From Isoetes taiwanensis (Eukaryota; Streptophyta; Lycopodiopsida; Isoetales; Isoetaceae): 64,000 bases of DNA. The notes under the pieces were generated by a model. That model had not been told where the DNA came from. It saw only the letters and a program-made list of their open reading frames with translations, and made no database searches. This document shows positions 1 through 30,367 of this stretch, one piece after another; within the stretch, counting starts at the first letter, position 1, and the number at the start of each line of letters is the position of its first letter. The translations under genes were made by a program, and so were the position numbers. Location: assembly GCA_021234155.1 (NCBI GenBank), contig JAJEKV010000009.1, forward strand, positions 6,435,546 to 6,499,545, read 5' to 3'.

Positions 1-746
1 CTAGGGACTTGCTATAAACTAGATTATCATCAAAGAAAACTATGATGAAAGAGTCTAGGAATTCACGAAAGACGTCGTTCATGAGCCTCATGAATGTTGC
101 TGGAGCATTAGACAATCCAAATGGCATCACCGTGAACTTGTAGTGTCCATATCTTGTCCTGAAGGCAAACTTATGGATGTCCTCCTCTTTGATTCTGATC
201 TGGTGATAACCCGATCTCAAGTCTATCTTGGAAAAGACTTTTGCTCCCTGCAACTGATCCATTAGATCATCTGATCTAGGCAAAGCATACTTGTTTTTGA
301 TGGTGTGCTTATTCAATTGACGATAGTCAATGCACATCCTAAGGCTTCCATCCTTCTTCTTCACAAAAAGTATGGGCGCTCCAAAAGGAGAGACACTAGG
401 TCTTATGAACCCTAGGTCAACTCCTGCAATTGCTTTTTCAACTCCGTCAACTCATCGGTCGACATTCGGTAGGGCGCCTTGCTTGTTGGCTTAGTCCCTG
501 ACTCAAGTGCTATTTCACACTCGACTCCTCTGTAGGGTGGAAACTGCTTAATCTCATCAGGAAACAAGTCATAGAATTCCTTCACCAACTTTGCTATAGG
601 CTTTGGGAGCTTGCTCAATGTTTTAGCCTCTTTCTCTTCTTCTGTCTCTTGGTCGTCGACCTCAAGTTTAAGGAGATAGGCCACTTGCTCCTTCCTTATG
701 CATTTAAGTAACTTCTTCACTAGACATGCATTGCATGATTGGGGTT
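1..746 (-). pseudogene. pol: X reverse transcriptase, N-terminal part (cut by window edge)
   Basis: Begins with the protease-RT linker and an acidic stretch, then FPPYRGVECEIALESGT and APYRMS, followed after a frameshift near 411-425 by [42 protein letters not shown] and [12 protein letters not shown]. The catalytic block reads FFDD (23-37) where YxDD is usual, so the first position is altered. This is a standard Ty3/gypsy RT. The thumb, RNase H and integrase are outside the window. Confidence 0.85.
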
Positions 747-806
747 TGTAAGAAATCATGATCATGGTAGAAATACAACATATACTGTATTTATACGTTT
801 GTACGT
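747..806 (+). repeat. Left inverted repeat of Y
   Basis: Starts TGTAAGAAATCATGATCATG and ends ATACGTTTGTACGT. It is the reverse complement of 11,216-11,275 at 57 of 60 positions and contains the 10-nt palindrome CATGATCATG. It sits directly beside the truncated Y RNase H. Confidence 0.9.
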
Positions 807-1264
807 CTTTTGAGACATGACTTTTCATAAGCAATAACTTTTCCCTCTTGCATTAATACAACTGCATCTGTCATAACATCATAAGGCTTGTGAGGATCTG
901 CGATGGTCAAAATAGGAGCCATTGTTAATGCATTCTTAAGGTTCATAAAGCTTCGTTCGGCTTGTTGAGTCCATCGAAATGGAACATTCTTACGCAACAA
1001 ATTAGTCAAAGGTGTTGCTTCTAGAGAGAAATTCTTAACAAATTTACGATAAAAACGTGCAAGACCAAGAAAGGATCTTACATCATGTTGGTTCTTTGGT
1101 ACAGGCCATGTGCGTATTGCCATAACCTTCTGTGGATCAACTGAAATTTCCTGGGCAGAGATAAAATGTCCCAAGTATTCAATATGATCTCTAAAGAAGA
1201 AACTTTTCTTAGGATTAATAAAATATTTATGTTTTTGCAATAGAGTCAAAACAACTTTTACCAA
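807..1264 (-). pseudogene. pol: Y RT connection and start of RNase H, truncated
   Basis: Gives YFINPKKSFFF, EYLGHFIS, RSFLGLARFYRKFVKNFS and FRWTQQAERSF, the usual RT thumb/connection, then the RNase H start (YDVMTDA…VVLMQEGKVIAYEK) with an internal deletion. Sequence ends abruptly at the left inverted repeat. The remaining RNase H and all of integrase are absent. Confidence 0.85.
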
Positions 1265-1800
1265 TTCCTCATGTTCTTCTAGGCTCTTAGACTACACAAG
1301 AATGTCATCGAGATACACAATAATACCCTTCTGAAGATGGTCACGAAATAGATCATTCATGGCTGCCATAATGTGGCAGGAGCATTAATTAGACCAAAAG
1401 GCATAACCATATATTCATAGTGACCAAAGTGTGTTCTAAAGGCCGTCTTATGTTCATGACCTTCTTTAATCCTTATTTGATGATATCCGCTTTTCAAATC
1501 AATCTTAGAAAAACATTTGCTACCGTGAAGACGATCTAAAAGGTCATCAATACGTGGCAGCGGGTATCGATTCTTGATGGTTATCTTGTTGAGCACACGA
1601 TAATCCACACAAAGCTGCATGCTCTTGTCCTTTTTCTTTACCAATAACACAGGTGCACCGTAAGGACTACGACTTGGGCAGATATAACCTCGCTCAGGCA
1701 AGCTGACGATCGATCTCCAAAGATTCTTGATGCGAGACTCGATATGGAGCTCGAGATGGAGGAGCAGACCCCGGAGTAATGTCAATCGCATGGTCCACAC
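1265..1800 (-). pseudogene. pol: Y reverse transcriptase
   Basis: Clear Ty3/gypsy [58 protein letters not shown], then after a frameshift VYLDDILV with the catalytic YLDD at 1,304-1,315, followed by an in-frame stop (TAG). It overlaps the protease-RT linker frame near 1,700-1,800, so a frameshift lies there. Confidence 0.85.
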
Positions 1801-2490
1801 TCCTTCGTGGAGGTAGCTCCGGACTGGAGTCCTGCATTAGAAAGGTCTTAAATTCATGAAGAGGAAATGTAGGTGGAAAGACGGAAAAGTCAACACCCTT
1901 CTTAATTTCCTCATTTTCATATGCTTTATCATGTACAAGTAAGGTAAACAATTGAGCTTGTTGTTTACGTACCAACTTCTTAACTTGAATGGCCGAAAGT
2001 AATGGAGTCGATGGTAAATCTCGCTCTCCTTGCAATTCATATCGTTTTCCGTCCACCTGAAGTTTCATAATATGTCTTCGAAAGCTGATGAACGGATCAT
2101 ACTTCCACAACCACTCTTGACCAATAATCATATCAATATGAGTCAATTCCATGACTGCAAAAGAATCTCGTGCATGAAAAGTCTGAATGCGATAGGTAAT
2201 GTCCTCCACTTTATCAGAGGAGATTTGAGAACTTCCATCGGCAACTTGGACATCAAGTGGCTGGTCATGGGGACTGGTTGGGAGTCTTAACTTAGTGGCC
2301 ATGGTGCATGAAATAAAATTATGAGAGCACCCTAGTCTACTAGAATAATAAACTCCTGGCCTCTTAAGGACCCCTTGATCTTAAAAGTGTCGTTTGGTAA
2401 AAATGGGGTGTCTTTTACTTGGGCGACCCCCACAAATACCACATTGTTGGATCCTGTATTCTTACTTTTCTTATCGTTGTTCTTAGTGTT
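1801..2490 (-). pseudogene. Y gag tail and protease
   Basis: From the LINE junction (2,490) the frame gives a Lys/Asn-rich gag tail, VFVGVAQVKDTPF and then the retropepsin core, where the active-site D-[S/T]-G reads D-stop-G (VD*GCSHNF, about 2,320). The frame is then open through MIIGQEWLWKYDP, the second protease signature, to RT-linker motifs ([11 protein letters not shown]) near 1,700. The stop in the catalytic triplet means this copy cannot make active protease. Confidence 0.8.
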
Positions 2491-3185
2491 ATCCCCTCCT
2501 CTCAGTGGCCCGGCTCCCTCTCTCTAAGCGCCCTCACGGCGCCCGGCTCCCTCCCCTCCTCTCAGTGGCGCCCGGCTCCCCTCTCTAAGCGCCCTCCCGC
2601 AGCCCCGGCTCCCCTCTCTAAGCGCCCTCACTCCCCTTGCATAGACCCCCCTTGATTTGCCCCTTTCGACTTTCTCTCTCTAGGGTTTACAATCTCTCTC
2701 TAGACCCAAAACCCCCAAACCCCCAAAAAGGCTCCACACCGCCTTCAGGAGCCCAAAGCGGATTCTAAGCACCCTTGAGAATGCCAGAGACCCCTCGGAC
2801 TTTGGAGCCCTCAAACCCCCCACACACTTGCGGTAGTTGGCATGCAATAATTGTGAGTGATGTTCTATTCTAATCTATGAGAAGCGGTGGCAGTGGATTA
2901 GAAGCGGTGGCATGTTAAATGGTGTCGTGTTGTACAAAGCTTTGGAAAGACCTATGAGAAGCGTTGGCGGTGGGTCAAAGTCAAAGTCAAAGGTGGTGGG
3001 CACCCCCTACAGGGTGTTCTTTGGGCTCGCTAGAAGCGCACCGACACCCCCGCCCACCACTTAGGGTTTTCCGTTGACTAGCCCAAAAGGTGCTCTCTGC
3101 AGCGTTCTTGAGTCCCCAAATTCAATTCTAGGCACCCTTTCATGACCGAGACCCCTCAAACTTTGGGAGTCATGGCCACGAGAAG
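2491..3185 (+). repeat. LINE 5' untranslated region with tandem repeats
   Basis: 2,495-2,640 holds three to four GC-rich units of about 40-50 nt built from CCCGGCTCCCCTCTCTAAGC and CTCCTCTCAGTGGC. Two further related blocks (around 2,765-2,810 and 3,120-3,165, sharing CACCCTT and GAGACCCCTC.AACTTTGG) are about 360 bp apart. Repeated 5' units are common in LINE promoters; promoter activity is inferred. Confidence 0.6.
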
Positions 3186-4450
3186 ATGGGCGGCACACAG
3201 AAACCCAAAGGCGAGGGCCCGCCCGCACAAACGGTCCCGATCAGCCATCATGGACGGGGAGAGTCATCCTCCATGAAGAAGGAGGCTCGGGCTAAGGCTA
3301 AAGGCCCCCTCGGCGAGGCCCGGCCCGGTGGGAAGGGATTAATTACTTTCGGACCACATAGGAACTCCCGCCTCGGCGAGAGAGGTGGAACCCCGTCAAA
3401 GCGGGGAATGGAGGCTAGCGGTGCTCGTGTGAGGCTAACGATTGCCACTGGCTGGCATGGCGGTGGAGATGGAGTCCTCGGCATCCCATGTGCTCAAAAG
3501 GCAAATCGGGTCGAGAAGAACCGTATCCACAGGCTTGGAGACCCGCCGCTGCATGTGGAAGATGGCCTTGGCCTTGCACACGGCCGGCGGCGAGGCGAGG
3601 CAGGAGGTCGCCGACATGCGGGCCCGCCTAGACTTCTGTGTTCATCACTCACGGACACCATGACCACGGGGAGAGGAAGCGCGCAATGCGGGGAGGCGAT
3701 GGTCCGCGCTGTCGGCCCGGTGGGAGGTAGAGGCGGCCACCACCATCTTGCCCGGGGAGCCAAAGGCTGCTCTTGCGGACGGCCCGGAACATACGGCCCG
3801 GGATCTTGAGTAAGATCGGAACAGCAAGCCGGCCCCTCGGCGCCCCGTGTCTTTGGGGCTCGAGCAGCTCTCGCTACTGAGCACGGAGCTCCGGGGTTGC
3901 GGGCAACCATCCCGAGCAGAGCGGGGGGTCTCCCTACCGGGTTCATAGTCAGGCGGCGGATGCGGCGCGGGGATGGCAAAGCGGCGGGCTGCGCAAAGTT
4001 GTGCTCCCGACTTCACGAGGGGCGAGAGGCGCGGCTGGGGCCGCTATCCCGCCCACGGCCTCAGCGGCGTACGCCCGCCCCGCTGCTGCCCGGCTCTCCG
4101 GCCACTCCCGCGCCATCCCGGCCACACTCCGGTCACTCCCGCCATCCCGGCCACCACCACCACCCCGGCCTGAGGACCCGGCCTTTCGCCCACCTTGGAC
4201 CCGGGAGCCTTGAGACTCTCGAGGCCTTGGCGGAGAGCCCTATCGGTAGTTGAGGCATGCGAAGCGGCGGGGAGAGTCTCGCCCACAACATCCGAACACA
4301 CATTCTGTCCGGATGACATTCCGAGGCGATTCACATTTCTCGAGCAGCCCGGCATGGGGTTTCGGCCCGGGCCGTGGCCCGCATTGTCATATTCGCGGTT
4401 GCGGATGGATGCAGTGCGTGATGCCATATTGCGCGTGAGCGGATGTTGAA
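3186..4450 (+). pseudogene. LINE ORF1-like region
   Basis: Starts at the first good ATG after the 5' repeats (MGGTQKPKGEGPPAQTV). It is very rich in Gly, Arg, Pro and Ala and is open to 3,809 before frames break up. It occupies the ORF1 position of an L1-type element, whose product normally binds the element RNA. No RRM or zinc knuckle can be read here, so the call is positional. The reverse strand also has long open frames, a GC-composition effect. Confidence 0.45.
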
Positions 4451-4599
4451 GGGGACATCCCATGCGTGGACGGGACCTCACACGCGTGCGGCGGGGAGGC
4501 TTGAGGCGGGGCTTGTCGGCCGAGGCATTCGCCCAGCGAGTCTTTGCCGGGAGATTGGTTGGCGGGATGCACATTTTAAACGACACACTCGCTGCTGCG

Positions 4600-7500
4600 A
4601 GACCCGCAACCCCAACCCGCGGTACCGCAGCGGCCACGCTTCGGCTTCTACTACCACGGCCCCCCTTCTCCTGCTCCTACTCCTGCTCCTACTCCTGCTC
4701 CCTCGCGGCCCCGCCCTCCGACCACATCTTTGCCTCCGCTCCATCTACTTCTCCTTTCGGCCTCGCTTCCCGTCCTCCCCGCGACTTCGGTGCGCGCATA
4801 CCATCCCTGGCCGACAAATAGGAATTGTGCCTCGGGTGGTCTCATGGAATTGTCGAGGCTTCCCTTGGCGAGAAGGGGGGCGGTCCCGAACTTCAAGTGG
4901 CAGCGGTATGGATCTCATCTTCCTCATGGAACATGGGAGCATCTTTGAGCCTGAGGCTACCGATTCTGCGGGTTACCAACATTTTTAGGTCTTCAATACA
5001 TGCAGGACAGGCGGGGTCATGGTGGAGTGGCTTGCTACTACCAGGACAACCTTGGCACATTGATTTACCCTCGAGAAGACAGAGGCGACACTGGCCGGTG
5101 CCACGGGTTACGGGTTCGTGTGCATAATACCGGTGGCAACCCTCTTTTTACGGCGCTGTTATTTCCCTCCCTTGACGGCGGCACCTTCTATCGCAGCCAC
5201 CCCGATGCGGATAGGATGGACCGTATGTCGATCTATATGATGACATCTGGCGGCATCAGCCAGTTAGGTAGGGTCGTCCTTCTTGGAATTTCAATGCCGC
5301 GGACGGGAGAGCAGCCCATGCGACTTGACCCCCGGCGGCGATGTCTGCGGCTCGCCCCTTGAAGTAGCGGCCGCGGACTTGTGGTCGGATGACGGCCAGT
5401 CACTTTCGCTTTGGTGAGCAGTTGCTCTGCTATGTGGCATTTTGACTTGATAATTTGCAATGGCCTTTCCACGGTGGCCGATTCGCAAGTGCACATGCGA
5501 GCGGGACAATCGGGGGAGGGTCTAGTGTGGTGGACTATGTGCTTGTAGTTCGCCAAGATATGCATCTCATCGGTCGTTTGAGGGTGGGCGCAGGCGGTCG
5601 GGATGAGGAGGTCGACTCGGATCACCTCCCACTTTATTTGGACTGGTTTGGCGAGCCGCGGGACCCCCACTATGCCAGCCCCTCGCCGTCCCTCGGTTGA
5701 GACTTCGATTATGCGAGGCGGAGGACTACGCCCAAGATGCTCATGGGCGCCCTCCCGGTAAGTGCAGGACCTCCACACTAGAAGCGGCCGAGCCAGACCG
5801 GTGACCGCTATTGCGAGGGATGCGGCCGGGCGGAGTGCTTTGGCGGACCTCCCCGCGTCGCCCTTCGGGGTCAGCAACATTCCCTCGTAACCGATGGTTT
5901 GATCAATTTTGTAAAAACATAATGGCGCTTCCGTCACGATGCGGATCCGGTACCCGGCTGCGGGCCACCACGATCTGGCGCCCATCCCGAAGGACACAAA
6001 GCGCGGTACCTTGCCAAGCATCGAGGGGAGATGTTCGGCTGCTGGACACTCATCCCTCGAACCTTTTGGCCTTGTGAGAGTGCTTGAAGGCCAGCCCACC
6101 CTACGGGGGACATCACACACAGGCGTGGGAGCGATTTGCGGCGGCTCTATGACCCCCGAGGGGCAGCGTCACGCCCATATACCCCCCAGGATGGCCCCAT
6201 TGGTTTCGTGGGCCGAGGATGTTGAGGAGGGCACCGCAGCGGCTAGCTAATGGGAAGGCGGTGACCTCGATGGTATGCGGGCGGAGTTACTCAAGTGGGC
6301 GGGGCGGCCGCTTGTGCCGGTCCCTCACTACCCTGTTGTGAGCATTGCGGGGAGGGTTTCCCCGACAATGGACCCTAGCGAGGGGTTGTTCCCATTCACA
6401 AAGGCCCGAGGCGATCCACCTTTGTCAGGCCAATTACCGGACGATCATGGTGATTCGGTATTTGCCAAAGCTGTTATCGGCATTCTCGAGGGCTTGATTG
6501 ACCCATTTGGGCGAGGCGGCGGATGTGCGAGAACCCTCACGCAGGCGGGCTTTCGACCCCGCCACTCAGCGATTGACCATATCTTTCTGGCTGCGGGGGC
6601 GATTGAAGGCGTAGGAATCATAATTTGGACTTGTATTCTTTGCTTTGTGGACTTCGCAAAGGCTTTTGATCTGGTCCCAAGGAAAAGGCGCGGGCTAGGC
6701 TGCGTCAAGCTGGGGCTCCCGCTGTCGAGAATGCCATATCTGAGGTTGTATGAGAGTTGTTTTGGCGGGGATGCGGTAAATGGGCCAAGCATTCACCATG
6801 AGTATCGGGGTCGGCGGGGTTGCCCCCTCTCGCCAACACTTTTTGGCCTCTACATTGATCGATTAGAGCCACAGCTTCGAGCATGGGGAGGATGGCATAC
6901 GGCTTTTGCACCAGGTCATCCCGCCAGCTCATCTATCTGCGGGGACGATGTTGGCTGGCGGCCCACACCCGAAGCTATGCGGTCTCACACGGATGCCCTA
7001 GACACATTTTGTCGGGGCTCTGAGACATCGCGGCGTCAATCGGCCAAGACCGGGGTGGTTCTCATATCCTCTTCCGTCACCCCATGCCTCATGCACTCAC
7101 ATATCGGGGACGGCTGTGGGACGTCACGCCCACCTACAAGTACCTAGGGGTGGAGTTCCCCTCCTTCTGTTTGGGAGGCGTCTATCCCGCTTGCGGGTGA
7201 CGGCCGGAAAGCGCTTTATGCCATGCGGAGAACAAGATCCTGGCAGAGCTATATGATTGGGGCCATCAGTCACATCTGTTAGCACCGGTCGAGCCCGTCT
7301 TACATGCGGGGTCGAGCTTTGGGGCCCGATCGTCTTCGGGCGACACAGGAATGACTTGGAGCAGGTGCGAAGGCATTTTGGCGGGCACTTGGGGTGAAAC
7401 CTTCAGTCCCCTATCGATTCTCTTTGCCGAGAACTGGATTCTTACGCTTCAATTGGCAGCCTTGATAGACACATCGTCTATTTTGAGAGAAAGTGGTTAC

Positions 7501-8121
7501 TATGGGTGATGCTCTTCGGCTCCCGCACATAGCTTACACTGCGGGCCATGAGTCCTTGGGCCGGCTTAGGGCTGTTGGAGGGTAAGAGAGATCGGTGGTT
7601 CGCCCAGATGGAGCGTCACGGGAACAATGAGTCGTCTGTTGGTAGCGGCCGACCCGTCGTGGCGACTGCGGGAGTACCTAGATGCTTGTTTCCTTGGCAA
7701 GCTCACGGGATCCCATTGCTCTAAAGCAGGTCAAAATGGCCCATTACAAGGAGCACATTAACCCGTGTTGGCGGGGCCACTCTACCCTGCGTTCCCGGTA
7801 CCTGAAAGCCGCAGACTCATTGCCTCCATTACCGCATACGGTGCCCACCATCTTCGCGCATCGAGGCAGGCGGGTGGATTGGGGAGCCCGCCGGAGACGG
7901 GCTCTGTCGGTCTTTGTCAAGCGGGTGCCATTGAGGATGAGTCTCACACTTTCGAGTTGCCCGGCGTTGGTCGGTCAGGGCGGACGGCTCCCTTGCAAAT
8001 GCGGCGGACGTGCCCTTGCATTTGCGATGAACCACCGCCGTCGATGCGTGCCACGGGGTCATACATCCGGGGAGTGCCCGGACTGCGAGGTCACCTTTGC
8101 CCCTTTGGCTGTCGTGACTAG
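4600..8121 (+). pseudogene. LINE ORF2: endonuclease, reverse transcriptase, C-terminal finger
   Basis: Endonuclease: SWNCRGF near 4,845, a damaged GDFNARTG block near 5,285-5,310, and the terminal DSDHLPL near 5,613-5,634. Reverse transcriptase: HSAIDHIF, VDFAKAFDLVPR (6,650-6,680), RRGCPLSPTLFGLYIDRLE (6,815-6,870) and CGDDV (6,938-6,952) in place of the usual YADD. The C-terminal region has a degenerate Cys/His finger with GAIEDESHTF (about 7,930), as in plant LINE zf-RVT regions. At least six frameshifts separate these parts. The intact enzyme would nick target DNA and copy its RNA at the nick. Confidence 0.8.
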
Positions 8122-8356
8122 GCACTCTGGGGGTGGTGCATGATTTGTATATATTGGGATGTTTACGCATTTTATATGATTAGCACGGGTTTTTGTGTGG
8201 TGATTCTTTGCCGCGGTTTTCCCTCGAAAACCAGCCGAGGCGGGGTTTTTAATCCGGGCGTGATAATCCGCTTGCTACGTTTTTGTATTGGGTCCCATAG
8301 ACCGATTGGTCTCCGTGGACGATAAAAGTACCTTCCTTCCTTCCTTCCTTCCTTCA
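8122..8356 (+). other. LINE 3' UTR and (CCTT)n tail
   Basis: Contains CGAGGCGGGGTTTTTAATCC and TGGGTCCCATAGACCGATTG, ending GTGGACGATAAAAG before a CCTT microsatellite (8,332-8,356). A related 3' end occurs at 43,130-43,240. A simple-repeat tail instead of poly(A), next to the target duplication, supports a retroposition end. Confidence 0.7.
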
Positions 8357-9060
8357 TTCTTAGTATTGCTCTTAGATTTCTTATGGGGACATTGATAAAA
8401 CATATGCCCACCTTTTCCACATATATAACATAAGCCTTTTTGTCTGTACTCTTCGATCATTAAGTTTCTTGAAGACAGGTTTATTATCATTCTTCTTAAA
8501 AGAACTTTGTTGAGGATCCTTATTATTAGAGGAAATTCGAATTGATGCATTTCGATCGATACCTTTTTGATCATGATCAGGTATGAAATCTGCTACTGCC
8601 TCCAATCGCATCTTGAAGATCTTCAGGAGATGATTTCTCAACTTCTCTTCTTACATACTTCTTTAGTCCCCAAAGAAATTGATGCAGCTTCGTCTTCTCC
8701 GTTAGATCCTCAATCTCCAAAACACAGGATGTAAAATCTTGCATATAGGAAGCAATGCTTCCTGTTTGGCGTAATTCATGTAACTTATCCCTCAATTTGA
8801 GATCGGCATTAGAAGGTATGAAATAGTTTCGTAATTTCTTAATAAAGTTGGACCATGTTTCAATCTTATGTGCCTGGCCTAGTTGGACAGCCGTGGTATG
8901 GCGTCGCCACCATGACAAGGCATCCTTTTCTAAAGAGTTTGAGGCACAAAGGACCTTTTCCGAGTTTGGGGTTTCAGCAGATTAAAAATATTGTTCCATT
9001 TTAAAAATCCAATCGGAGAGGATCGTTTTATTTCTAGCCCCATTATATGGTTTAGGCAAA
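8357..9060 (-). pseudogene. gag: Y gag core and zinc knuckle
   Basis: Retrotransposon gag core (WSNFIKKLRNYFIPSNADLK, then QTGSIASYMQDFTS and a WGLKKYVRREVE block) at 8,577-8,918. A frameshift follows, then an intact CCHC knuckle CYICGKGGHMFYQC (about 8,410-8,455) and a Lys/Ser/Asn-rich tail. The tail continues on the far side of the LINE at 2,490, proving that the LINE interrupted this gag. Confidence 0.85.
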
Positions 9061-9178
9061 GGCTATACCATGTCTATGTCATACCATGTCACAATGATTA
9101 CCAAGTCTTTGCAAATTACCCATGCATATAGGCACCCATGGAGACTCGAACTCGAGACCTGCTCTTCATTAGGGCGGA
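9061..9178 (-). repeat. Fragment with tRNA box B-like sequence
   Basis: The minus strand at 9,141-9,159 reads GGTCTCGAGTTCGAGTCTC, close to a polymerase III box B as seen in plant SINEs. No box A is visible; it may have been removed by the neighbouring inverted-repeat element. ATACCATGTC is tandemly repeated near 9,070-9,095. Confidence 0.3.
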
Positions 9179-9749
9179 TTTGGGGTCTCAAAATGGCCTC
9201 GAAAGAAAAATTCCATGTCATATTTTCTCTTGCTTAATAATTGTACTTTCCTTCTCTTTAATCGCAATAAATACTCAAAAAGTAACTTCATCAATTAGTT
9301 TTTGGGCCATAACTTTTGATTCATAGCTTCAAATCGCAAGATTTTTGTTTTATTGGAGGAATCAAAAGATCTATCCAACAGTATATGGGTTGAATATATT
9401 TTAATCTAATTTAGATGACCAAAAGTTAAAAAAACGAGAAAAAACCTGGTTTTTTGCATTTTTTTAGTCTTTCCTTTTATCAAAAGCATATCAAGGCTAT
9501 ACTCATTGGAAAGATCTCACCATGGGCTATCCAACGCAACAAACGGCGTGCAATTTGGACATCACAATCACAAGTTATAGCCAAAAAACGATGCATTTAA
9601 GTTAAAAAGTGCAATTATTACAGTACTATTTATTGCAAAAGTGCCACGTAATACTGATTTTCATTTTGAATTCCTCTCTTTCATTGGCTTGAAGGTACTA
9701 TGACGTGGATATTAGAAATTAAAGTTAAGGGCCATTTTGAGACCCCAAA
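9179..9749. mobile_element. 571-bp element with perfect 20-bp terminal inverted repeats
   Basis: Left arm TTTGGGGTCTCAAAATGGCC at 9,179-9,198 and its exact complement at 9,730-9,749 enclose AT-rich non-coding DNA. It sits inside Y gag. No matching target duplication is visible beside the arms, so the family (foldback or MITE) is unassigned. It codes for nothing recognisable. Confidence 0.65.
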
Positions 9750-9792
9750 AATGGATACCAACTGTGACGTTCCTAAGATTTCTTATCTCTTT

Positions 9793-10285
9793 TTAAAAGG
9801 TGGTATAATTGTTTAACCTCTGGAGAGAAGTCGTTGGGTTCCTCTTTGCCTTTTTGTCTATCTCCCTTCTCTTCGTCTTCGTCTGAGTCCTCATCACGCC
9901 TGCGCCTATGGCTTCCTTCACTTCGTAACTCGGCGAGTTGGGCAGCCATAGTATGAAGTTACGCACGCATGTCATGCATTTCCTCTTGGAGAGGGTCCCC
10001 GATGTCGAAGTCCTCTCCCTCTAAATCCACGTCCAAGCGGTCCCCATGTTTAGAGTCCTCATGTTTCTCATGCTTATCATCTTCAAGTTTAACATCCTGA
10101 AGCGTTTCCGTATCAGGAAGAACGGAAGTGCTTGCCTCTGGCTTGGGATCGCTTTCTTTGGGTGGGTCTCTAGGCGGAGATGCCCCCACCGTTGGAGTGG
10201 TACTAGATTCTTTTAGAGGGCCGTCTTTTCTTAAAGGATACGGGGAGCGTGTTGGCACCACCCGTGGCTTGTCTTCCTTAGGCAT
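9793..10285 (-). pseudogene. gag: Y gag N-terminal region
   Basis: Opens at the ATG at 10,285 (MPKEDKPRVVPTRSPYPLRK), followed by a Pro/Ser-rich and then strongly acidic segment (DVDLEGEDFDIGDP). After a frameshift near 9,960 a basic segment runs on to 9,793. It follows the Y leader directly and is separated from the gag core (below 9,060) by a small inverted-repeat element and SINE debris. Assignment is by position and composition; no conserved motif is present in this part. Confidence 0.55.
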
Positions 10286-11187
10286 CTTAAATAACCTTCA
10301 AAATGCACTAGGTTATTTTAACGTAGCACAAGGTTCTTAATCTTAAAAGTTTCAAACAGAATTTTGGAAGCTTTCGTAAATTCAAAATAACAATTTGAAG
10401 GTTAGAAGAATCTCAAGAAAGTTGTCAAGGAGTATCGAACCCTCGACCTTGAATGTCCTACACTAAAATCTTACCCACAATAAACAACCACTTAATGCTT
10501 AATAAAGACAAAGAACTATTAAAAAGAACTATTAAACCTTTTTAAATGTTATCCTATTTTTATTTTTTATCCTGGAGGGTTTGTTGCCCTTTCTTATTTT
10601 TCTTCCTGTTGTCTTCGTTGGTTCCCCTCTTCCTGTTCGGCGGTTTCCGGCCACAGCAGCCAGTGCCGTTTCGACAGTACAGGTTGTGAGATGAACAGGT
10701 TAAAGCCCCAATCCGGCCAGATCTCAGACCTGCGGAGTCTTCTTGTCGCCCTGGCCACAGAGTCGGACCGATTTTCGGCAGGGTTTTCTTGCAAGGGACA
10801 GATTTTCGGCAGGATTCCTGCCCAGATTTGCAGTCGGCAAAGTTCTTACACAGATTTGCAGGTATGAGGGGTTCTTGCAGGTATTTGCAATCGGCCGGGT
10901 TCTTGCACAGATTTCTTGCGAGATTTCTTTGAAGGTTCTTGCTCAGATTTTCAGTAAGCTTGCTTAAGGCACATGGATGTTGGCCGGAAATGCCATGGAT
11001 TTTGAAGACAGATCTTGCTGAGTGCTGTTCCTATTATTCTTATTGCAATTCTATTCGAAATTTCTTACGTTTCCTTTTCATTTGTCCATAGCATAAATTA
11101 ATTCTAGAAACGAATAAATGCAGGAAAGACTCACCTGGTTTTGAGTTTGCTCTTCAAATCTTCTGATTGTCCTTTAGCTCTTTTTAA
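10286..11187 (-). repeat. Y untranslated leader with degenerate tandem repeat
   Basis: Non-coding stretch between PBS and gag ATG. From about 10,760 to 10,965 it holds five or six degenerate units of roughly 35-45 nt built on GGGTTCTTGCACAGATTTGC and ATTTTCGGCAGG. No long open frame supports a gene. Confidence 0.6.
10400..10480 (-). mobile_element. SINE-like tRNA-derived segment in the Y leader
   Basis: The minus strand carries a box A-like GTGGGTAAGATT (10,470-10,478 region) and a box B GGGTTCGATACTCC (10,429-10,442) at about 35-nt spacing, the pattern of a plant SINE head. Its 3' end and target duplication are not clear. Confidence 0.45.
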
Positions 11188-11199
11188 GCTCTGATACCA
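11188..11199 (-). other. Y primer-binding site (tRNA-iMet type)
   Basis: The minus strand reads TGGTATCAGAGC followed by TTAAAAAG. This identifies the inverted-repeat-bounded unit as derived from an LTR retrotransposon, although no intact LTR pair is seen. Confidence 0.8.
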
Positions 11200-11215
11200 A
11201 TTAAAAGGAACCCCC

Positions 11216-11275
11216 ACGTACAAACGTATAAATACAGTATATTTTGTATTTCTATCATGATCATGGTTTCTTACA
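11216..11275 (-). repeat. Right inverted repeat of Y
   Basis: Complement of the left repeat. On the minus strand it begins TGTAAGAAACC and is followed by GGGGGTTCCTTTTAAT and then the PBS, so it sits where the 5' LTR should be. Only ~76 bp separate the TG from the PBS. Confidence 0.9.
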
Positions 11276-11803
11276 GGATTACTTCTTTACCTGTTATCTC
11301 AATGACCTTGCCCTCTGGCGTTGTTAAGGTCACCTTCCGCTTCCCACAATCAATGACAACTCCTGCTGGTCCAAGATATTCCATGCCTATTATCAAATCA
11401 TATTTGCCGATGTTCATCACTTCGGCTCCCAGTGCTACATTGATTCCTGGCAAGTCTACGTTGAAGTTGATCCTCTTCCCTGCTGTGTGCCTGATTGCCC
11501 CACTAGCCAACACAACTGGCCTAGGCTTGGACTTGAAAGGCTTCAGCTTCAACATCTGTACCATCCTTGGCGACGCAAAGTTATGGGTGCTCCCTGTATC
11601 TATCAAGACTATGAAAGATTTTGCTTGGGCTTTCCCGGTTGTCGAGATGACTTGATATTGGCTTTCGGGGTTCTCAGTGTCAATGGCGGCAAAAATATGG
11701 CACTCACCCTGGATGTAGTCTGGTGCATCGTCCTCGTCAGCGTCCGTGGGTGCCTCCCATCCCATCTCCGCTAGTGCCGTGTTCATCACCAAGGGGCAGT
11801 TGT
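11276..11803 (-). pseudogene. X aspartic protease domain
   Basis: Retropepsin domain with active-site motif FIVLIDTGSTHNF, then the flap region and the second signature YDLIIGMEYLGPAGVVIDC typical of Ty3/gypsy protease. The frame is open from the knuckle to KEVIL at 11,276, where element Y begins. The expected protease-RT linker (SYKPQSCNA…) is found at 746 on the far side of Y. The enzyme would cleave the Gag-Pol polyprotein. Confidence 0.85.
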
Positions 11804-13319
11804 TTGTCCTATGCCCTGGCTAGAAACACCTAAAGCACAGCTGCTTTTCTATGCACTCCTGCTTCTTCTCTTTGGGAATGGATTGCAAAAACTGTTTCAC
11901 TGCCTTGGAATAGTTGGAGCCCCCTCCTTGCTCTTTGAAGGTCACCTGCTTCTTATCCTGCTTGCCAAAGTTTGCATTGCCCTGCTTCCCATAGTTAGCG
12001 TTGTATTGAGGTCTGCTAGTTGCTGGGCTTGCTGCTCTTGGGCTATAACTTCCTGTGCCCTTTCCCTTATCCTGATAGTACTGCTGCCGCTCTTGGGGTC
12101 TGGTTCCTTGCAGGCTGACTACTTTGGACTCTGCTTCTGACACCATCCTAGGGTTGATGGGTCCTGTGGTAAGACGTTAAACTGCCATACCCAAGGTCAC
12201 GGGTTCAACGCCTCGTTGTGAAAGTGGCCATGCAATGTAAAGTTGGTGGGGGAAGGACCCACTTCAGCAATGTAAAGTGGTGGGGGCAGGACCCATCTGG
12301 GTGTGTTGTAAAGTGTCACATGTCCGATAGGATGCTGCCTTGTGGTGTGACGTTAAAATCTCTTCTTCTTCTTCTTCTTACTAGCTTCTGGATCTCCTCA
12401 TTCAACCCTTCTATGTAACCCTCCACTGCATGCCTTTTATTTAACTTTGGCACATAGAGCCTTAGTCTCATGAATTCTTCCGTGTACTTTTGAACTGATT
12501 TGTTGCCCTGCTGCAACCTGTAAAACTGCTGCATCATGTGACACTTGTGTTCTCTTGGCACATAATGGCGCTTGAATGCCTTAGCAAACTTCTTGAACCT
12601 GCAACTGTCCCTGCTTAGTCCATGTGCTTTGGCGTAGCCCTTCCACCAAATCCTGGCTGCTCCCTTCAGGTTTGCTGTAGCTACTCTGCCTTTGTCCTTG
12701 TCTTTCATGCTGTAGGCATTGCCATACTCTCTCATTTCGTCTAGCCATGTCTCTGCCTCCATACCAGACCTGTTATCTCCCGAGAATTGTTTCAACTTTC
12801 TTGATTTCCATACGTTACTGAGCGCTGAGTCAACCTTCTTCTGATAGTCAGATTGTGTCCTGTCCCTATCGCGGTTTGGACCCTCCCGGCGGTCCTGCCT
12901 CTCTTCCTCCTGCTCTTCCAATCCAGAATCAGAGTCTGAACTAGAGTCGGAGGACCCCTTGCTAGGTGATCTCCTTCTCCGGCTTCTCTTCCTTGGTTGA
13001 ACTGTTCGGCCGGCTGGGTTTCTGGCAGTTGCACATTCTGGTCTTGTCCTCCTGTTGCTGCTCCTGCCAGCAATGCTCTTATCTCATGAATGTCCGTCTT
13101 AATCTGAGATAGCTCCTCTTCTGGTGTTGGTGCATCAAACTTTTGGTACAGATTTCTTGGTCGGAATTGCCTTGATGGAGTGCGCTCTTGCTCACGTGGT
13201 CCTTGTTCCTCAATGTTCCTAGGTGATCTAGCTGCATCCACATTAGATTGAACCCTGATAATTAGTTCTTTGTTTGGGTTGTTGCGCTGGTTTGTTTGAT
13301 GATGCAATTGTGGGGGCAA
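11804..13319 (-). pseudogene. gag: X gag (capsid and zinc knuckle), interrupted by a SINE
   Basis: A Gln/Arg/Pro-rich N-terminus starts at the ATG at 13,319. A frameshift near 12,920 joins it to the retrotransposon gag core, which has the usual ETWLDEM, ARIWWKG, FKRHYVPRE and QGNKSVQKYTEEFMRLR blocks (12,400-12,800). The SINE at 12,151-12,380 separates this from the nucleocapsid part. The CCHC knuckle is CFRCF-stop-PGHRTNNC: the stop at 11,820-11,822 is TAG where a CAG (Gln) is likely. Gag forms the retroelement particle and binds its RNA. Confidence 0.85.
12151..12380 (+). mobile_element. tRNA-derived SINE inserted in X gag
   Basis: The element splits the gag coding sequence. A box A-like GTGGTAAGACG (about 12,166) and a clear box B GGTTCAACGCC (12,202-12,212) sit at normal polymerase III promoter spacing. 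It ends with GTGACGTTAAAATC and a (TTC)n tail at 12,360-12,379. The possible target duplication is only CTAG on each side. The tail core GACGTTAAAA also ends LINE-type 3' sequences in this window, which suggests which machinery mobilised it. Confidence 0.7.
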
Positions 13320-13426
13320 TTTATATGTTAAGAAAACATAATTAAGATCACTTGTTTATATTCATGGATATAATACTATTTATACATTCAAGATATTAAT
13401 CATGGAAATTGAAAACATTTCTAATT

Positions 13427-14909
13427 CTATTCTTGAAATTTCTTCAAGTAATCCGGGTTGTCCTCCAAAACTTTCTTCACTTCGGTCGTGCCGATTGTTC
13501 GCCCTAAGTTCCTCAGGATATTTGTGGCGGTGCCTCCTTGAAGTGCGGTCACCAAGTCTTCAATCCTCCTTTCTGATGTATAGGTTGCAGTAACTGCCAA
13601 TCTGTCCTGTCGCCTATAGGGGACCGCGAAGTCGAAGATGCTCAATGTTATTGTTCTCTTGACGAGGATGACATGATCGATGTTTGGGGCCATACGAGCA
13701 TGACTTCCGAATCCTGAGAGAGCAATGAGCATAAAGACTCCTTCTTCACCCCATGGGCTGAATTGGCGGTGTATAACCGCTATCCTTCCATCAATGAGCA
13801 AGGGGAGATAGAACCTGAGGGCTTTGTCATGCCCTGCCTCTTCGCCGGATCTGAGTGCTGCTCTGTGTCTTCCGGAGTACTCATCAACCGGTACTTCCAC
13901 CATCTCTCTGTAATCGCGGTACACGGTAGCTGTCAGGTTGATGCTGCCTTCAGCTAGTGCTGGTGCCGATGCCGATGTGCTAGGTAGGAGCGCGGACGTT
14001 GATTTTCCTTTGATTCCCATGTGCTCCTGCATTGCTAAGAACTCCTCTTCCGAGGGCAACTCCTGTTCAGCCATCATCTGTCTGATGCCGGTGTAGGCTT
14101 CTGTATCCGTTGACGTCTGAGCAGTGTATGTCCGGGCTTCCCTTATGCTAACAGGAAAGTCTTGTGTTTCTCGGTCGATGAAGTTGTCAAGGTCTGGGTC
14201 TTGCCGTAGAAGATGCAGAAGTTCGTCTATTCTATAGCCCCTATCTCTGCACTCTGGGAGGTTCTTGATGTCGTGGGGGGTTAAGTACGCCTCTCCTTGG
14301 ATAATCACTGGGGTCAAGCTTGTTATTCCTTGCCCAAGTGGTGGGGCTGTTCTTGGCCTTCTTCGAAGCTTTGGAGCTGCTGCTCTGCTTGCTGCCTTTC
14401 TTGTACTAGGTCGATGTCTTTTGTGTCCGAGTCGCGTCCTTCCTCTTCTTCTTCTTCCTCTGCCTCCTCGTATACAAGGCACATCTGCTCTTCTTCAGCT
14501 GCTGCCATGGCCATTGGCTCGACGTCTAAGGGTTGCACAGATGGTTCTCCTATCTGGGTTTGGGCTCGAAGAGATAGGAAAATAGCTACGGCTGCGGTGT
14601 AAGAAAAGTATCTCCTCCTATTGACAGCTATGGACTTGTTTTCTAGGTACTTGTCTATATTGGGGATGTCTTGCAGAGCTGTCTTGAGGGCCATGCTTGG
14701 AGCAAAGTATCCTATGCAAGGTGGGAGCTCTACTAGATAAGGTCCTATCCTAGCATGGAACTCAGACATGATGTCTTGGTAGAAGGTGTAGCATTGATGG
14801 TAGCCTCCACATCAACCTCCTTCTGGAAGACGGCAAAGACGGAGTTGATGTCGGCCTCGGCAACATGAGCTGTGGCGTTGTACCATCGCCTAAATGCAGA
14901 GGTTGCCAT
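13427..14909 (-). pseudogene. Second extra gene of X, unrecognised ~490-residue protein
   Basis: I do not recognise this family. It opens MATSAFRRWYNATAHVAEAD after a TATA-bearing leader and runs to a stop at 13,427-13,429 (…DYLKKFQE). One frameshift lies near residue 45 and another near 14,330-14,480. Features: a moderately hydrophobic N-terminal third, a very acidic run of Glu (about 14,440-14,470), a low-complexity Ser/Ala/Pro segment (about 13,960) and a compact C-terminal half with alternating hydrophobic strands (around FMLIALSGFG and VILVKRTITLSIFDF). No gag, zinc-knuckle, protease or nuclease motif is visible. It lies between the histone-like gene and gag on the same strand. It could be a structural or DNA-binding accessory protein. 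Confidence 0.55.
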
Positions 14910-15011
14910 GGTATAAGAGCAGCTGGGGATGATGGGAAAGCGCCTTAGGGAGCTGGAAAATCGGCTTGGAGTGAGGAGCAAAGGTGTAGGATGCAAATGA
15001 GGGTTGCGGTC

Positions 15012-15019
15012 TATTTATA
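15012..15019 (-). promoter_or_regulatory. TATA box of the second extra gene
   Basis: The minus strand reads CCTATAAATAGAC, 103 bp before the ATG at 14,909 and about 170 bp beyond the nearest palindromic repeat. It shares sequence and layout with the TATA box at 17,116-17,123. Confidence 0.55.
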
Positions 15020-15191
15020 GGTAAAACCCTAATTTTGGGAAATTTCAAAGTTGGGGAATCCCTATGATTCTAAGATATTGCTATGCAAATGACAGGCTAA
15101 CTATGTTGAAGAGTGCATTCTAAGGATCCTATTGCAACAAATTTCATCTAATTTGGAGAAAGTTAGGACAAACTAGGACAATTATGGTGTG

Positions 15192-15623
15192 ACCACTCAC
15201 ACAGTGCGCGAGGAGCAAATCCGAAAATGGCAGATTTGGTCTGGGCGCACTCTGTGAGGGGTGGGGGCCTGTTTGGGTCAAGGATGATGCCAAACATGCA
15301 AACTAATTTCTTCATTTGGACAACTTTTGGCATAGATTTGGGGTCGACCACTCACACAGTGCGCGAGGAGCAAATCCGAGAATGGCGGATTTGGTCTGGG
15401 CGCACTCTGTGAGGGGTGGGGCTCCATTTGGGTTTGGATTGGCCAATTTCTACAATCTAAGGGTCAAATCCTACTAAACACAATGAGCTGGGTCGGATGG
15501 TGCCCTTACTTTCTTCATTTGGATAATTATTGGCCAAGATCAGTGCTCGACCACTCACACAGTGCGCGAGGAGCAAATCCGAGAATGGCGGATTTGGTCT
15601 GGGCGCACTCTGTGAGGGGTGGG
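15192..15623. repeat. Three ~70-nt palindromic repeats upstream of the second extra gene
   Basis: Copies lie at 15,192-15,264, 15,347-15,420 and 15,550-15,623, with start-to-start distances of 155 and 203 bp. They are nearly identical to the two copies at 17.2-17.5 kb. The first has a changed inner stem (CCGAAAATGGCAG). All lie in the gap between the histone-like gene's stop and the TATA box of the next gene. Confidence 0.85.
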
Positions 15624-15761
15624 GCCAAAAACACTGAGTTTTGCTCCAATTTTGTTGATTCCAAATGCAGAACTTAGTAATACACCCTAATTAAACATGA
15701 TTTAACACATCAATTCGACAAAACCATAAATTTGTATTTACAAAAATTATTTACAATAGAC

Positions 15762-16997
15762 TTAACAGTCTTCTTTCTTAATATATCTGGCGAGCCTCAT
15801 ATCCTTAGGCATCCATATTACCCTTTTTGCGTGTATAGTGCGCATGCTACCGAGTCTTCAAAGTGCTGGACAATCCTCTGCTCGGCTGCCTCCTATAGCG
15901 CAAGTAACATGTCATCGGTTACCCGCTTGGTCTTGTCAAATTCCTGCAAAATCTCGCGAGTGAGTCTCGCGAAGGGGGCTCTCGGGATCAGAAGTCCATA
16001 GCTCCTCTGGAAATGCCTGATCTCCCGAGCAGCTTTGGCAAAATATGAGTCGGCCTTTCTCCTGATCGGCTTCCTCGGAGGTGCTGGTCTCTCAGGGGGC
16101 GGCTTCAGTGTGTTCTTCTTGGTTGGCCTGCCTCCTTCGACATAGGTGACCTTGTGCTCCTTGTAGTACTTTGAGTATTCCTCGTAAATTCTCGTGTACT
16201 GGGTATACTCTTTGAGTTTCTTCCTGTACTCAAGCTCGTGCTTGAGTACATATGACTCCCGCGCAGGCCTCAGCTTGTTCTTGTCTGCTGCCGGGTGCTT
16301 TGGGGATGGCCACCTTGGGTACGGGGATACCTCTGCTGCTACCTCCTCCTCCTCATTTCCTGGGTTCGAGGGTCCCGAGCCCTCAGCTGGAGCAAGGATC
16401 CTTATCCTCTCATCTGACTCAGTGTCAGATGAGGATGGCGGCTTATCGGGCTCTTGCTCCCGAATGACGACTCCTTTGGCTGGGGTCGTCTTTAACTTCT
16501 GCCGGCTCTCTTTAGGCAACTCGGGGCTTTCCCCTTGTCCTGCGCTTCCTGCGCTCCTCCTTCTTCTGTCTCCTCTCCTCCTTCCGTTTCTGGCGCTCTT
16601 CCTTCTCTCGCCGGCACTCCTCTTTGGTCTTCTTGACCTGAGTTTCTTCGTCCTCCCTTTTCCTCTTCCACTCCTTCTTCTCTAATTTCTTGAGCTCCCT
16701 CTCTAGCTCCCTCCTTAGTTCTTCTGCAGCTCCCTCATCTTCCATTGGCTGGCTTTCGCTCGGCTCCTGGGCCCCTCACTGTATGTTGGGCTGCTCCTCC
16801 TCGTGTCATGTGCTGCTCTTTCTCTGGCTCTGAGCCTCCTCTTGGGCGTCACGGGTTGGCCTCTGCATCCTTCTCAGCTTGGATGGCTCACGAGCACATG
16901 CGGCCTTGGCTAGGGTGGCTAGCTCACAGGCACTCACATGGTCTTCGGGCATACAATGAGCTCTGGGAGGTGATGCACGTTTGAGCGGAGGGGCCAT
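15762..16997 (-). pseudogene. Histone H3-fold protein with long charged N-terminal extension (carried by X)
   Basis: The span is about 410 codons. The N-terminal ~250 codons are unlike any family I recognise and include a long Lys/Arg/Glu-rich, coiled-coil-like stretch (about 16,512-16,740). From 16,060 the protein follows histone H3 helix by helix: AREIRHFQRS (H3: LREIRKYQKS), LLIPRAPFARLTREI (H3: LLIRKLPFQRLVREI), a loop 1 of the same length as canonical H3, then HFEDSVACAL (H3: LFEDTNLCAI) and MPKDMRLARYIKKEDC before the stop (H3: MPKDIQLARRIRGERA). Damage: stop at 15,893-15,895 where H3 has Gln (CAG to TAG), two in-frame TGA stops near 16,750-16,805, one frameshift near 16,520 and small frameshifts just before MPKD. 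The start is the ATG after the TATA box. Loop 1 is not lengthened as it often is in CENH3. The fold assignment is strong; function is unknown, and nucleosome-like DNA packaging is only a guess. Confidence 0.75.
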
Positions 16998-17115
16998 GTT
17001 TTGTATCAACGCAATCCGACTCACGTGCTTAAGCGCCTAAACATCGTCTTTGGGGACGATGGGAGAATGCATTTCTTTGGAGGAGGTAAATGTAAAATGA
17101 GGAACCCTAATTGTC

Positions 17116-17123
17116 TACTTATA
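17116..17123 (-). promoter_or_regulatory. TATA box of the histone-like gene
   Basis: The minus strand reads CCTATAAGTAGAC, 119 bp before the ATG at 16,997 and about 110 bp after the last palindromic repeat. It matches the CCTATAAATAGAC in front of the second extra gene, including a CCTCATTT element shortly downstream in both leaders, which suggests related core promoters. Confidence 0.55.
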
Positions 17124-17232
17124 GGTGTTCACCTTTTTAGGGTTTGGACCTGCAATTCCATATTATGCCATTCTAGGAGATATTAGTGTAGTTATGATGA
17201 ATACATTGGGTTTATGTAGCCAAAAAGCATCC

Positions 17233-17516
17233 ACCACTCACACAGTGCGTGAGGAGCAAATCCGAGAATGGCGGATTTGGTCTGGGCGCACTGTGTGAGA
17301 GGTCACCTCTTTTTGGGTCCAATTTTCAATTTATAAGGAGTTTCTTGGTGACCTAACATGCAAAACTAGCTAGAATCTAAGGAATAAGCTGAACTGCACT
17401 ATTAGATTAGCTAAATTATGCATCTAACTAGGTCAACTTGGGTCCACCACTCACACAGTGCGCGAGGATCAAATCCGAGAATGGCGGATTTGGTCTGGGC
17501 GCACTCTGTGAGGGGT
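17233..17516. repeat. Two ~70-nt palindromic repeats upstream of the histone-like gene
   Basis: Copies lie at 17,233-17,303 and 17,446-17,516. Each has outer arms ACCACTCACACAGTGCGC and GCGCACTCTGTGAGGGGT (imperfectly complementary), enclosing a second perfect stem CAAATCCG/CGGATTTG around a 7-nt loop. Both copies are followed by CACCTCTTTTTGG. Start-to-start spacing is 213 bp. The same repeat occurs three times upstream of the next gene and was noticed nowhere else in the window. Confidence 0.85.
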
Positions 17517-17719
17517 CACCTCTTTTTGGCGAAATTTGGTTGGGTTTTTGCTAAAACTTACTACTAATGTAGCATTAACCTACTTACTGCACTAGAAATT
17601 GGAAAAAAATTTCCCAATTTTCGAGGTTCATGCTTGGGTGGCTATTCCCAAGACTGGGAGTCTACTGTTAGTTCTAACAGGAAAATTGTCAGTGCTCGAC
17701 CTTGGTGTACCAAGATCAT

Positions 17720-17731
17720 GCTCTGATACCA
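17720..17731 (-). other. X primer-binding site (tRNA-iMet type)
   Basis: The minus strand reads TGGTATCAGAGC, the standard plant retrotransposon PBS complementary to the 3' end of initiator tRNA-Met. It lies one base from the LTR end (CA on the minus strand). It fixes the element's orientation and shows that the two extra genes lie between PBS and gag. Confidence 0.85.
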
Positions 17732-19041
17732 CTGTGATGTCCCCTACTTCTTATACGATACACACATCATTATCGGAAGTGAGCATTCCCACGGCGACCA
17801 AGCTGGCGGGGGCCATCCACGACACCACTCCCGGTGGAATGAGCGACAAGGGAAGAGTGGATGTGTCATTCACTGGCTCCCTTGAATTAGGCCTATATCT
17901 TGGAAGCATGAATAAACATGAGTACATAATAACAATATATCAATACAATCACCTCGAAGGGTGAACACATCATAATCATCACATAAACAACAATATCAAC
18001 ATGAGCAATAGCAACAAGGAAATCCTACCCGGGGCTCGGACTCAAGGGGTTTGGCCCGGCGGCTTGGGCCTCGAAGTCATTGGAGGCGAATTCATGGCAA
18101 TGGGTTTGGCTGGCATAAGAACATAGGTGAGGGTAGTCCACACCATCCAGCCCCTCATGTGCACACTTTGCGAGTAGGTTGAAAAGTATTGGAACCGGGC
18201 GTAGCTGCCCGGGTACATAGCCGGGGAGGGCTGTGCGGGTTGCATCTCCCAGCCCGATGAGGCGGGAGGAGAGTCACCTCTCCTCCAGGGGCATGCATGC
18301 CCATCACAAGTGGCTAGAGGACCACTGCCCTTATTCGACTTAACCTCATGGAAGGCGCATCGCCCCAAAGGTGTCGAGCTCATGCCTTGCCCACACGCAG
18401 TGGCAAGCCATTAAGCCTAGCTCACTAAAGTTCCTGGTAGGCTTTACACACTAGAGGAACTCTTCTGTGATGGGACAAGTCCCCCTTTTTCATCGGCTTA
18501 GCCCCTCCACCCACAACCAGGCGGGCTCATTGTGTACAGGCCGCATGTAACTGGGAACTAGGAGGCTACCTAGAATCATCTGCTACACAGGCTTTAGGCC
18601 TCTACCCCCCTTCCCAATACATGGAGGTCACAGAGTGAAATACCAACATCATCACAGAACTGAAATGAATAATATCATCTAATCTACCTACCTAAACATC
18701 CAAGATTAGGTTCCTTTGTTAGGGCTTATGATCTCGGGATCTATAAGGCCTCTATGGCTGAACTAACATGCTAAACTAGCTTATTGCCTAGCCGAAAGGC
18801 GGCTTTGCACAACAGAATGACTGATTACCTGGTCCTCGACCTGCTCCAGATCCTCGAAATGCATCCATGCCCTTGATCTTGCTGAAGACTGCTGCTACTC
18901 GACGATCTGTTGTGCAAAGGCGGCTTTATAGAGCCTAGCGATGCGAATTTGGGTCTTAGCTTGGCCGGAATGGCCCAAGAGAATCCCAAATGCGAAAGAA
19001 GGAAGGGAGTTCAAGGAAAACCCTAAATGCAAAGAGAAGAA

Positions 19042-19627
19042 TGTTTGGGGTCTGGGTTCGGGAACTCCTGCAAGACAGCCCTCTGTGAGGACCCTTGGAT
19101 CTAACAGGAGAATCCGGGGGACTATGTCACGCGGGATTTGCAAGAAAAGAACAAGAAGAAGAAAACAGAACAGAAGAGAACAATAAGAGGAAAATGATAA
19201 GCTTCCTTGATATCAATGATGAACATACATGAGCTCTCATAATCGAGAGAAGACTGAAGAGAGACAAGACTCAAAACTCATCTAAAAACTCATGTGCTAG
19301 CTATACTAATATATATACAATGGCCTTTGGCCCAATATAGACACTCGGTGATCTCGGTGCCGACTCACGGAAGGAGGGCGATTTCTTGAGGAATGTTGGC
19401 GGTGCCTCTTGAAGTGCCTAGAATCCTGGCCCGGCCGGCGAGGCGGTGGCGGGCCGTCACTTGTCTGGCGGGCCTCTTGTTGTGGGCCGGGCCGGGCTTT
19501 ATTTGCGTGGTCTGTATTTGGTCTTCTGGCGAGCCTTTGATGGCTGACCCGTGGTATTTGTGGATCCTTGTTCTTGACCTGGTCCGTCGTATGCATGAAT
19601 AGTCTACCCGGGAGGCACGGGACTAAC
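19042..19627 (-). repeat. Z 3' LTR
   Basis: 586 bp from TGTTTGGGG to GGGACTAAC, with short inverted ends TGTT/AACA (the last A is altered here). Homologous to 29,520-30,101 and 51,262-51,852 along its length, with differences clustered at CTG/CAG sites. Confidence 0.85.
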
Positions 19628-29360: not shown

Positions 29361-29519
29361 ATAAGCGAGATCCATACATGTCACCGAACGGCTTCCCTTC
29401 TATGATGGCGCTCCAAGCGAGACGTCGTGCGGGAAAGAAGTTCTTCCGGGCGTGAAATTTCGACGCATTATGGCGACGAAGAAAGGGAAAATCGAATCAG
29501 ACCGGCAGCGGCTTAATGT

Positions 29520-30101: not shown

Positions 30102-30132
30102 AAGAAAAAGGTTTAGGGTTTAAGGGGAAGCC

Positions 30133-30142
30133 CTTATATAGA
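30133..30142 (-). promoter_or_regulatory. Probable TATA box of the X LTR
   Basis: The minus strand reads CTATATAAGGG here, 220-230 bp inside the outer LTR end and ahead of the rest of the LTR in the transcription direction. Z inserted about 30 bp downstream, probably separating promoter from body. The same sequence is kept in copy B near 51,890. Confidence 0.4.
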
Positions 30143-30367
30143 AACCCTTAGGGTTAGGTTAGACATTGGCCAAATGGGGTTTAGCCATTTGGCAATGGGG
30201 TCCATGGGGTTTAATAATTGTGTATGTTTATTTAACATGCACAATACCGAGGTTGCCCCTAGGTGCAACCCTTTACGACCTCTAAGTACATGTCACTTGT
30301 GACATATGCGTATAACGTCTTGATATAATATCGTATTTGGGGCATATATTATCTTTGGAGCGTCACA

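Follow-up and report, generated by a model that had tools for sequence, protein, structure and literature searches.

A histone H3 gene kept upstream of gag by a chromovirus lineage of Isoetes taiwanensis

We analysed a stretch of 64,000 nucleotides (nt) from Isoetes taiwanensis (contig JAJEKV010000009.1, positions 6,435,546 to 6,499,545), called the window below, which holds a Ty3/gypsy chromovirus, element A, on its minus strand. The first open reading frame of this element (ORF1) encodes a histone H3 fold joined to an N-terminal extension that reaches ~300 residues where the frame is longest. A chromovirus lineage has retained the H3 gene in this place, before gag, for so long that several subfamilies have diverged while purifying selection acted on it. 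We regard the identity and conservation of the element H3 as close to certain, and the earlier reading of an H3 gene captured by the element is supported.

The window copy of ORF1 is broken, with three stops and two frame changes counted by eye. When its pieces were joined with X at the breaks, the H3 fold that the earlier note had recognised in 15762..16997 was matched end to end by PF00125 (1.3e-16) and in the PDB (E 9e-18), where the best 60 of 174 rows were all H3 and none CENP-A. The unbroken piece 15896-16681 matched PF00125 at 1.1e-7 and H3/Cnp1 in the PDB at 5e-6; its best-ranked PDB match was Cnp1, the CENP-A of fission yeast, on a par with H3. A frame-free tblastn search of the window with a plant H3 gave two colinear stretches, 16135-15824 and 15836-15771 (E 1.5e-16), and the remaining matches in the rest of the window all had E > 2. 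Compared with A. thaliana H3.1, the window fold was identical at 42 of 86 aligned residues, and alpha-N, alpha-1, alpha-2 and alpha-3 with a canonical loop 1 were present by sequence. The 262-codon open stretch of ORF1 was attained in 0 of 1000 shuffles. Outside the source genome, no match to ORF1 was obtained in a set of 5.8 billion proteins, and scans of viral and prokaryote contigs were likewise negative. Decay of ORF1 (5 breaks in 1.24 kb) and of ORF2, gag and protease together (5 in 3.57 kb), judged by eye, showed no clear difference (one-sided P 0.09).

The source genome (1,658,258,908 bases in 1110 contigs) was searched with PF00125, and the best 150 of 8705 first-look candidates were scored. 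Fifteen of these we read as canonical H3 (164-165 bits, profile 2-122). The other 135 scored 144-155 bits, started at profile positions 4-25 and often lay inside long open frames; an internal stop occurred in 5 of the best 150. Twenty of the 135, picked by H3 score and open frame, were fetched as the host-like sample, leaving out 115. Gag followed downstream on the same strand in 18 of the 20 (exceptions L010 and L016) and protease in 14, and a primer-binding site (PBS) lay within 1.2 kb upstream in 15. Reverse transcriptase (RT) fell inside the fetched stretch in three copies and was 89-92% identical to the window RT. The host-like ORF1 measured 280-464 codons, above the 250-codon minimum for the extra-ORF class eORF-5'F, and fits this class also in preceding the polyprotein on the same strand. 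All 20 folds agreed with host H3 at 77-81 of 91 residues, and the N-terminal extension was visibly alike between copies. The earlier note had named repeated copies with the same neighbours, together with purifying selection on the H3 part, as the support to look for; the former is borne out by these gag and PBS counts.

A second sample was drawn without regard to H3 score. The junction of long terminal repeat (LTR) and PBS, CGTCACAGTGGTATCAGAGCCGTGA, occurred exactly 405 times in the genome (198 and 207 by strand), and its reversed control 0 times. From the first 20 junctions listed, the stretch from +1100 to +2400 (1.3 kb) was taken; L046 among them and L010 are one and the same copy. An H3 fold match (E 1e-5 or better) was found in 11 of the 20, six of which had a complete 91-codon fold in a single frame with no stop; within these 1.3 kb the other nine lacked such a match.

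The window copy represents a second, more divergent subfamily. With a 262-residue window piece as query, 13652 first-look candidates were obtained and 146 matches scored, the window itself included; these were 56-100% identical (E <= 3.1e-73), and many were stop-free. Fourteen of the stop-free matches were fetched, and the ten complete folds among them were identical to host H3 at 43-50 of 88 residues. Hairpin repeats of 71 nt bracket the window ORF1, two before and three after it, with 65 of 71 columns invariant among the five copies and abrupt edges. They also flank ORF1 on both sides in L052 and L054 and on one side in L053. The hairpin core had 206 genome occurrences at up to 3 mismatches (control 0), and a comparison of the lists by eye, with 100 of the 206 hairpins listed, placed a hairpin within 2.5 kb of 15 or more of the 146 matches to ORF1. 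None of the 20 host-like loci gave a match to the window hairpin; other 10-nt inverted arms stood ~295-325 nt after the PBS in 6 of 9 host-like loci inspected.

Purifying selection on the H3 fold, the second kind of support named in the earlier note, was evident in every sample. Nei-Gojobori medians of the nonsynonymous to synonymous rate ratio (dN/dS) were 0.04 to 0.13 by sample, all far below 1 and like those of gag and protease; the values are rough because many pairs were near silent-site saturation and were left out. The host-like fold had a median of 0.039 (100 usable of 190 pairs), a value biased low because the 20 copies were picked by H3 score and open frame. The sequence before the fold in these copies gave 0.163 (55 of 190 pairs, range up to 0.75), and their gag, protease and RT gave 0.099 (117 of 153 pairs), 0.077 (78 of 78) and 0.019 (3 pairs), respectively. 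In the junction sample the fold had a median of 0.129 (20 of 55 pairs) and a pooled ratio of nonsynonymous to synonymous proportions (pN/pS) of 0.227, and the six uninterrupted folds gave a pooled pN/pS of 0.233. The window-type fold showed 0.077 (13 of 45 pairs), and the window-type sequence not covered by the search query 0.086 (17 of 45 pairs).

Host H3 is canonical (L001-L008). The element H3 lacks the conserved N-terminal tail sequence (ARTKQTARKS, ARKS27). All 20 host-like copies kept STGGK or a close form and retained K14, the K9-equivalent was proline in all of them, and none had an ARKS27 context after STGGK. Among five readable tails of the junction sample the K9-equivalent was proline in four and serine in one (L035). 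In the window type the linker is proline-rich, and none of eight H3 tail motifs checked was present in the three frames of the window ORF1. Within the fold, R49, R52, R69, R72 and R83, which we take to be DNA-contact residues, were retained even in the broken window copy. Positions 87-90 read FAIL in 15 of the 20 host-like copies, HAIL in L023, L025 and L028, FAVL in L019 and FALL in L020. These motifs are close to the SAIL or TAIL that several single viral H3s carry at 87-90, described as the chaperone site in PMC9145170.

Plants write silencing marks on the K9 and K27 contexts of H3. The explanation that we tentatively prefer as a whole is that the element H3 variant forms nucleosomes that resist such marks. 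The translated ORF1 protein would enter the nucleus and would probably pair with host H4 through the conserved fold. Variant nucleosomes or tetrasomes may then form on freshly synthesised DNA of the element or at its target sites. Having neither the K9 nor the K27 context in their tail, they would resist marking during expression and insertion of the element. The extension could tie the nucleosome to element proteins. Anti-silencing as the mechanism, taken by itself, we consider possible, with somewhat greater doubt. Its most specific form is a silencing-proof histone, with lysines 9 and 27 removed, that would sit on element chromatin so that host H3K9/H3K27 methylation fails, in an element whose integrase also has a chromodomain; this is conceivable, and slightly more doubtful again.

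Several observations weigh against this explanation, among them the low bias of the host-like median and the nine junction copies lacking a fold match, both given above. In L026 and L027 (2 of the 20 host-like copies) the fold is preceded, at a distance of 55 and 62 residues, by an ARKSG motif, which could act as a methylation or histone-tail mimic. Positions 87-90 of the window type are DMLL, which differs from host H3, and the window copy is altered at R63, H113, K115, R116, T118 and R129. Moreover, the integrase chromodomain does not favour an anti-silencing role in particular.

That chromodomain is also the first point in favour of a targeting role, in which the element H3 would be placed in host chromatin and its extension would recruit the integration complex, marking landing sites for the chromodomain integrase. 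The long extension, alike between host-like copies, fits this proposal as well; the contact between extension and integrase is hypothetical, and we consider targeting rather unlikely. Packaging, in which the basic protein would condense element RNA or cDNA in particles as a nucleocapsid helper, is less likely again. It agrees with the charged extension of the window type (30 K/R and 20 D/E within one 63-residue stretch) and with the strong hairpins that adjoin the gene as possible packaging signals, but gag seems by eye to carry a zinc knuckle of its own, and conservation of the whole fold exceeds what condensation requires.

A separate capture concerns the origin of the window type: its H3 may have been taken from host CENH3, for centromere targeting. 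We built a tree of 35 folds in which CENH3 was represented by the A. thaliana sequence alone. Host-like copies fell on one side of a branch (85/80) and the window type on another (100/99), and the window-type fold joined this CENH3 at 92/92. RHFQ and LIPxA/S in the window type match this CENH3, and its LLAL has what we take to be a CENH3-like look. However, the branches that meet are long, a single clade of both element types was not rejected (approximately unbiased test, p-AU 0.137), and loop 1 has canonical H3 length: it shows no gap against A. thaliana H3.1, is 2 residues shorter than A. thaliana CENH3, and so lacks the longer loop that is a CENH3 trait. The earlier note had used this loop to argue against a simple CENH3 capture; the length is as it said, but the window-type fold groups with CENH3 in the tree, so either a single capture or a separate one may lie behind it. 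We hold a separate CENH3 capture to be improbable.

A chaperone sponge, a protein that would titrate H4 or H3-H4 chaperones and thereby weaken host heterochromatin, agrees with a conserved fold whose chaperone site is altered, but would require high protein levels, and we give it only a slim chance. A chance-captured H3 pseudogene riding as a passenger in one copy, which the broken window copy might suggest, is contradicted by many intact-frame copies with dN/dS well below 1 and has next to no chance of being correct. A passenger retrocopy was likewise rejected: there is no A run of 7 or more, the flanking repeat is just 9 nt, and many copies exist.

We compared the element H3 with known systems. 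A tRNA-Met PBS is used by most chromoviruses and not by non-chromoviruses (PMC6317226), and plant Ty3/gypsy chromoviruses are known to carry extra ORFs, of the eORF-5'F class (PMC6317226) or as aORFs (PMC7264820). Element A resembles these elements in its order of Gag, protease, RT, RNase H, integrase and chromodomain, its iMet PBS, and an extra ORF that precedes gag in the same orientation (PMC6317226, PMC7264820). The eORFs of PMC6317226 are highly heterogeneous, whereas the H3 fold is conserved across subfamilies, and the passages of the two papers compared, supplementary domain lists aside, describe no histone-fold extra ORF. A hAT DNA transposon of Pyrenophora tritici-repentis carries the H3-like gene H3L in 26 copies, and is thus also a transposable element that carries and multiplies such a gene (PMC3538342). 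It is, however, a fungal DNA transposon with nearly identical recent copies, while the family of element A consists of LTR retrotransposons with a long N-terminal extension and diverged, selected subfamilies. Single viral H3s and bracovirus H4 are similar in having one histone with a host-like fold, some with an extended N-terminus and several with SAIL or TAIL; they belong to DNA viruses, and several keep most tail lysines, whereas the element H3 has no K9 and K27 contexts (PMC9145170). Retrotransposons of charophytes and dinoflagellates with DNA methyltransferases (PMC5890265) and an orchid gypsy element with an AlkB demethylase (PMC9289625) likewise retain a host-type regulatory domain, but these domains are enzymes and the element H3 is a structural chromatin protein.

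In the literature searched, which excluded subscription papers, preprints and supplements, we found no LTR retrotransposon described as coding for a core histone. A selected, multi-copy element H3 suggests that a mobile element may supply some of its chromatin itself. If the preferred explanation is true, the contest of mobile elements with host silencing reaches the nucleosome itself, and the selected natural H3 variants would test which histone residues silencing needs.

The features of element A are collected in Table 1. The window and L029, an 8-kb stretch to its left that holds the rest of the same copy, together give the LTR, iMet PBS, ORF1, ORF2 and the chromovirus order gag, protease, RT, RNase H and integrase. 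L029 contains RNase H (PF17917, 8e-33), integrase H2C2 (PF17921, 1e-16) and, at the integrase C-terminus, a chromodomain (PF00385, 3.5e-8), which was established for this copy alone. The partner LTR in L029 is 88.8% identical to the 5' LTR over 935 nt, too diverged for a recent copy. Next to the 3' LTR lies an inverted LTR piece of 253 nt. The earlier note had placed ORF1 between the tRNA-iMet PBS and gag on the element's strand, which is correct, except that gag is not directly next: ORF2 (14909-13427) intervenes and gag starts near 13355. A TATA-like sequence does exist upstream of ORF1 (17124), as the note had said, and the promoter is putative. The likeness between the TATA regions of ORF1 and ORF2 is not significant, because 67 of 1000 shuffles reached it. 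Rfam at gathering scores gave no family in the window.

Table 1. Positions of element A and its parts in the window
Feature	Position	Strand	Remarks
5' LTR of element A, part	17733..19041	-	LTR end GGGGACATCACA one base before PBS; upstream end cut by element C at ~19042
PBS TGGTATCAGAGC, tRNA-iMet type	17720..17731	-	one base after LTR end
Two 71-nt hairpin repeats upstream of ORF1	17444-17525, 17231-17312	-	z -5.7 and -6.2
TATA-like CTATAAGTAGAC, putative	17113..17124	-	127 nt upstream of ORF1 ATG
ORF1: charged N-terminal extension and histone H3 fold	15762..16997	-	ATG 16997, stop 15762
H3 fold, alpha-N to first half of alpha-2	15896..16033	-	frame unbroken; 22/46 residues as in A. thaliana H3.1
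H3 fold, second half of alpha-2 and alpha-3	15771..15892	-	spread over two frames
Three 71-nt hairpin repeats between ORF1 and ORF2	15190-15272, 15345-15427, 15548-15630	-	z -6.3 to -7.1
TATA-like CTATAAATAGAC, putative	15009..15020	-	111 nt upstream of ORF2 ATG
ORF2, ~495 aa, two frame changes in window copy	13427..14909	-	relative P0001
gag (PF03732 / Ty3 capsid, 6e-17) and zinc-knuckle-like end (by eye)	11820..13355	-	profile match
Aspartic protease RVP_2, 4e-11	11271..11819	-	profile match
Later insert B, splits element A between protease and RT	769..11253		37/38 nt terminal inverted repeats, 14-bp direct repeat
RT start of element A, runs off window start	1..768	-	RNase H, integrase, chromodomain continue in L029

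ORF2 lies between ORF1 and gag in the window and in L019, L024, L025 and L027 (443-501 aa), and its host-like and window-type versions are 20-31% alike. Its relative P0001 (501 aa) was the single match in the 5.8-billion-protein set, with 48% identity over 307 aligned positions and the first residues aligned from 14909; no Pfam, PHROGs or PDB-sequence match was obtained. In L013, gag follows ~0.4-0.5 kb after the H3 ORF without ORF2, and the LTR pair is ~93% identical.

Insert B contains gag, protease and RT pieces with its own tRNA-iMet PBS (11188-11199) just inside one end, and a LINE-like RT within; retroelement contents enclosed by inverted repeats are odd. Element C, whose LTRs lie at 19042-19627 and 29520-30100 with AAGAA flanking them, is another LTR element and was inserted into that of element A, within its LTR. 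Further along, the window carries a ~13 kb direct duplication (28831-42884 and 50608-64000, 87-91% identity) and a DUF7869 domain (PF25273, E 3e-30) at 62795-63301 on the plus strand.
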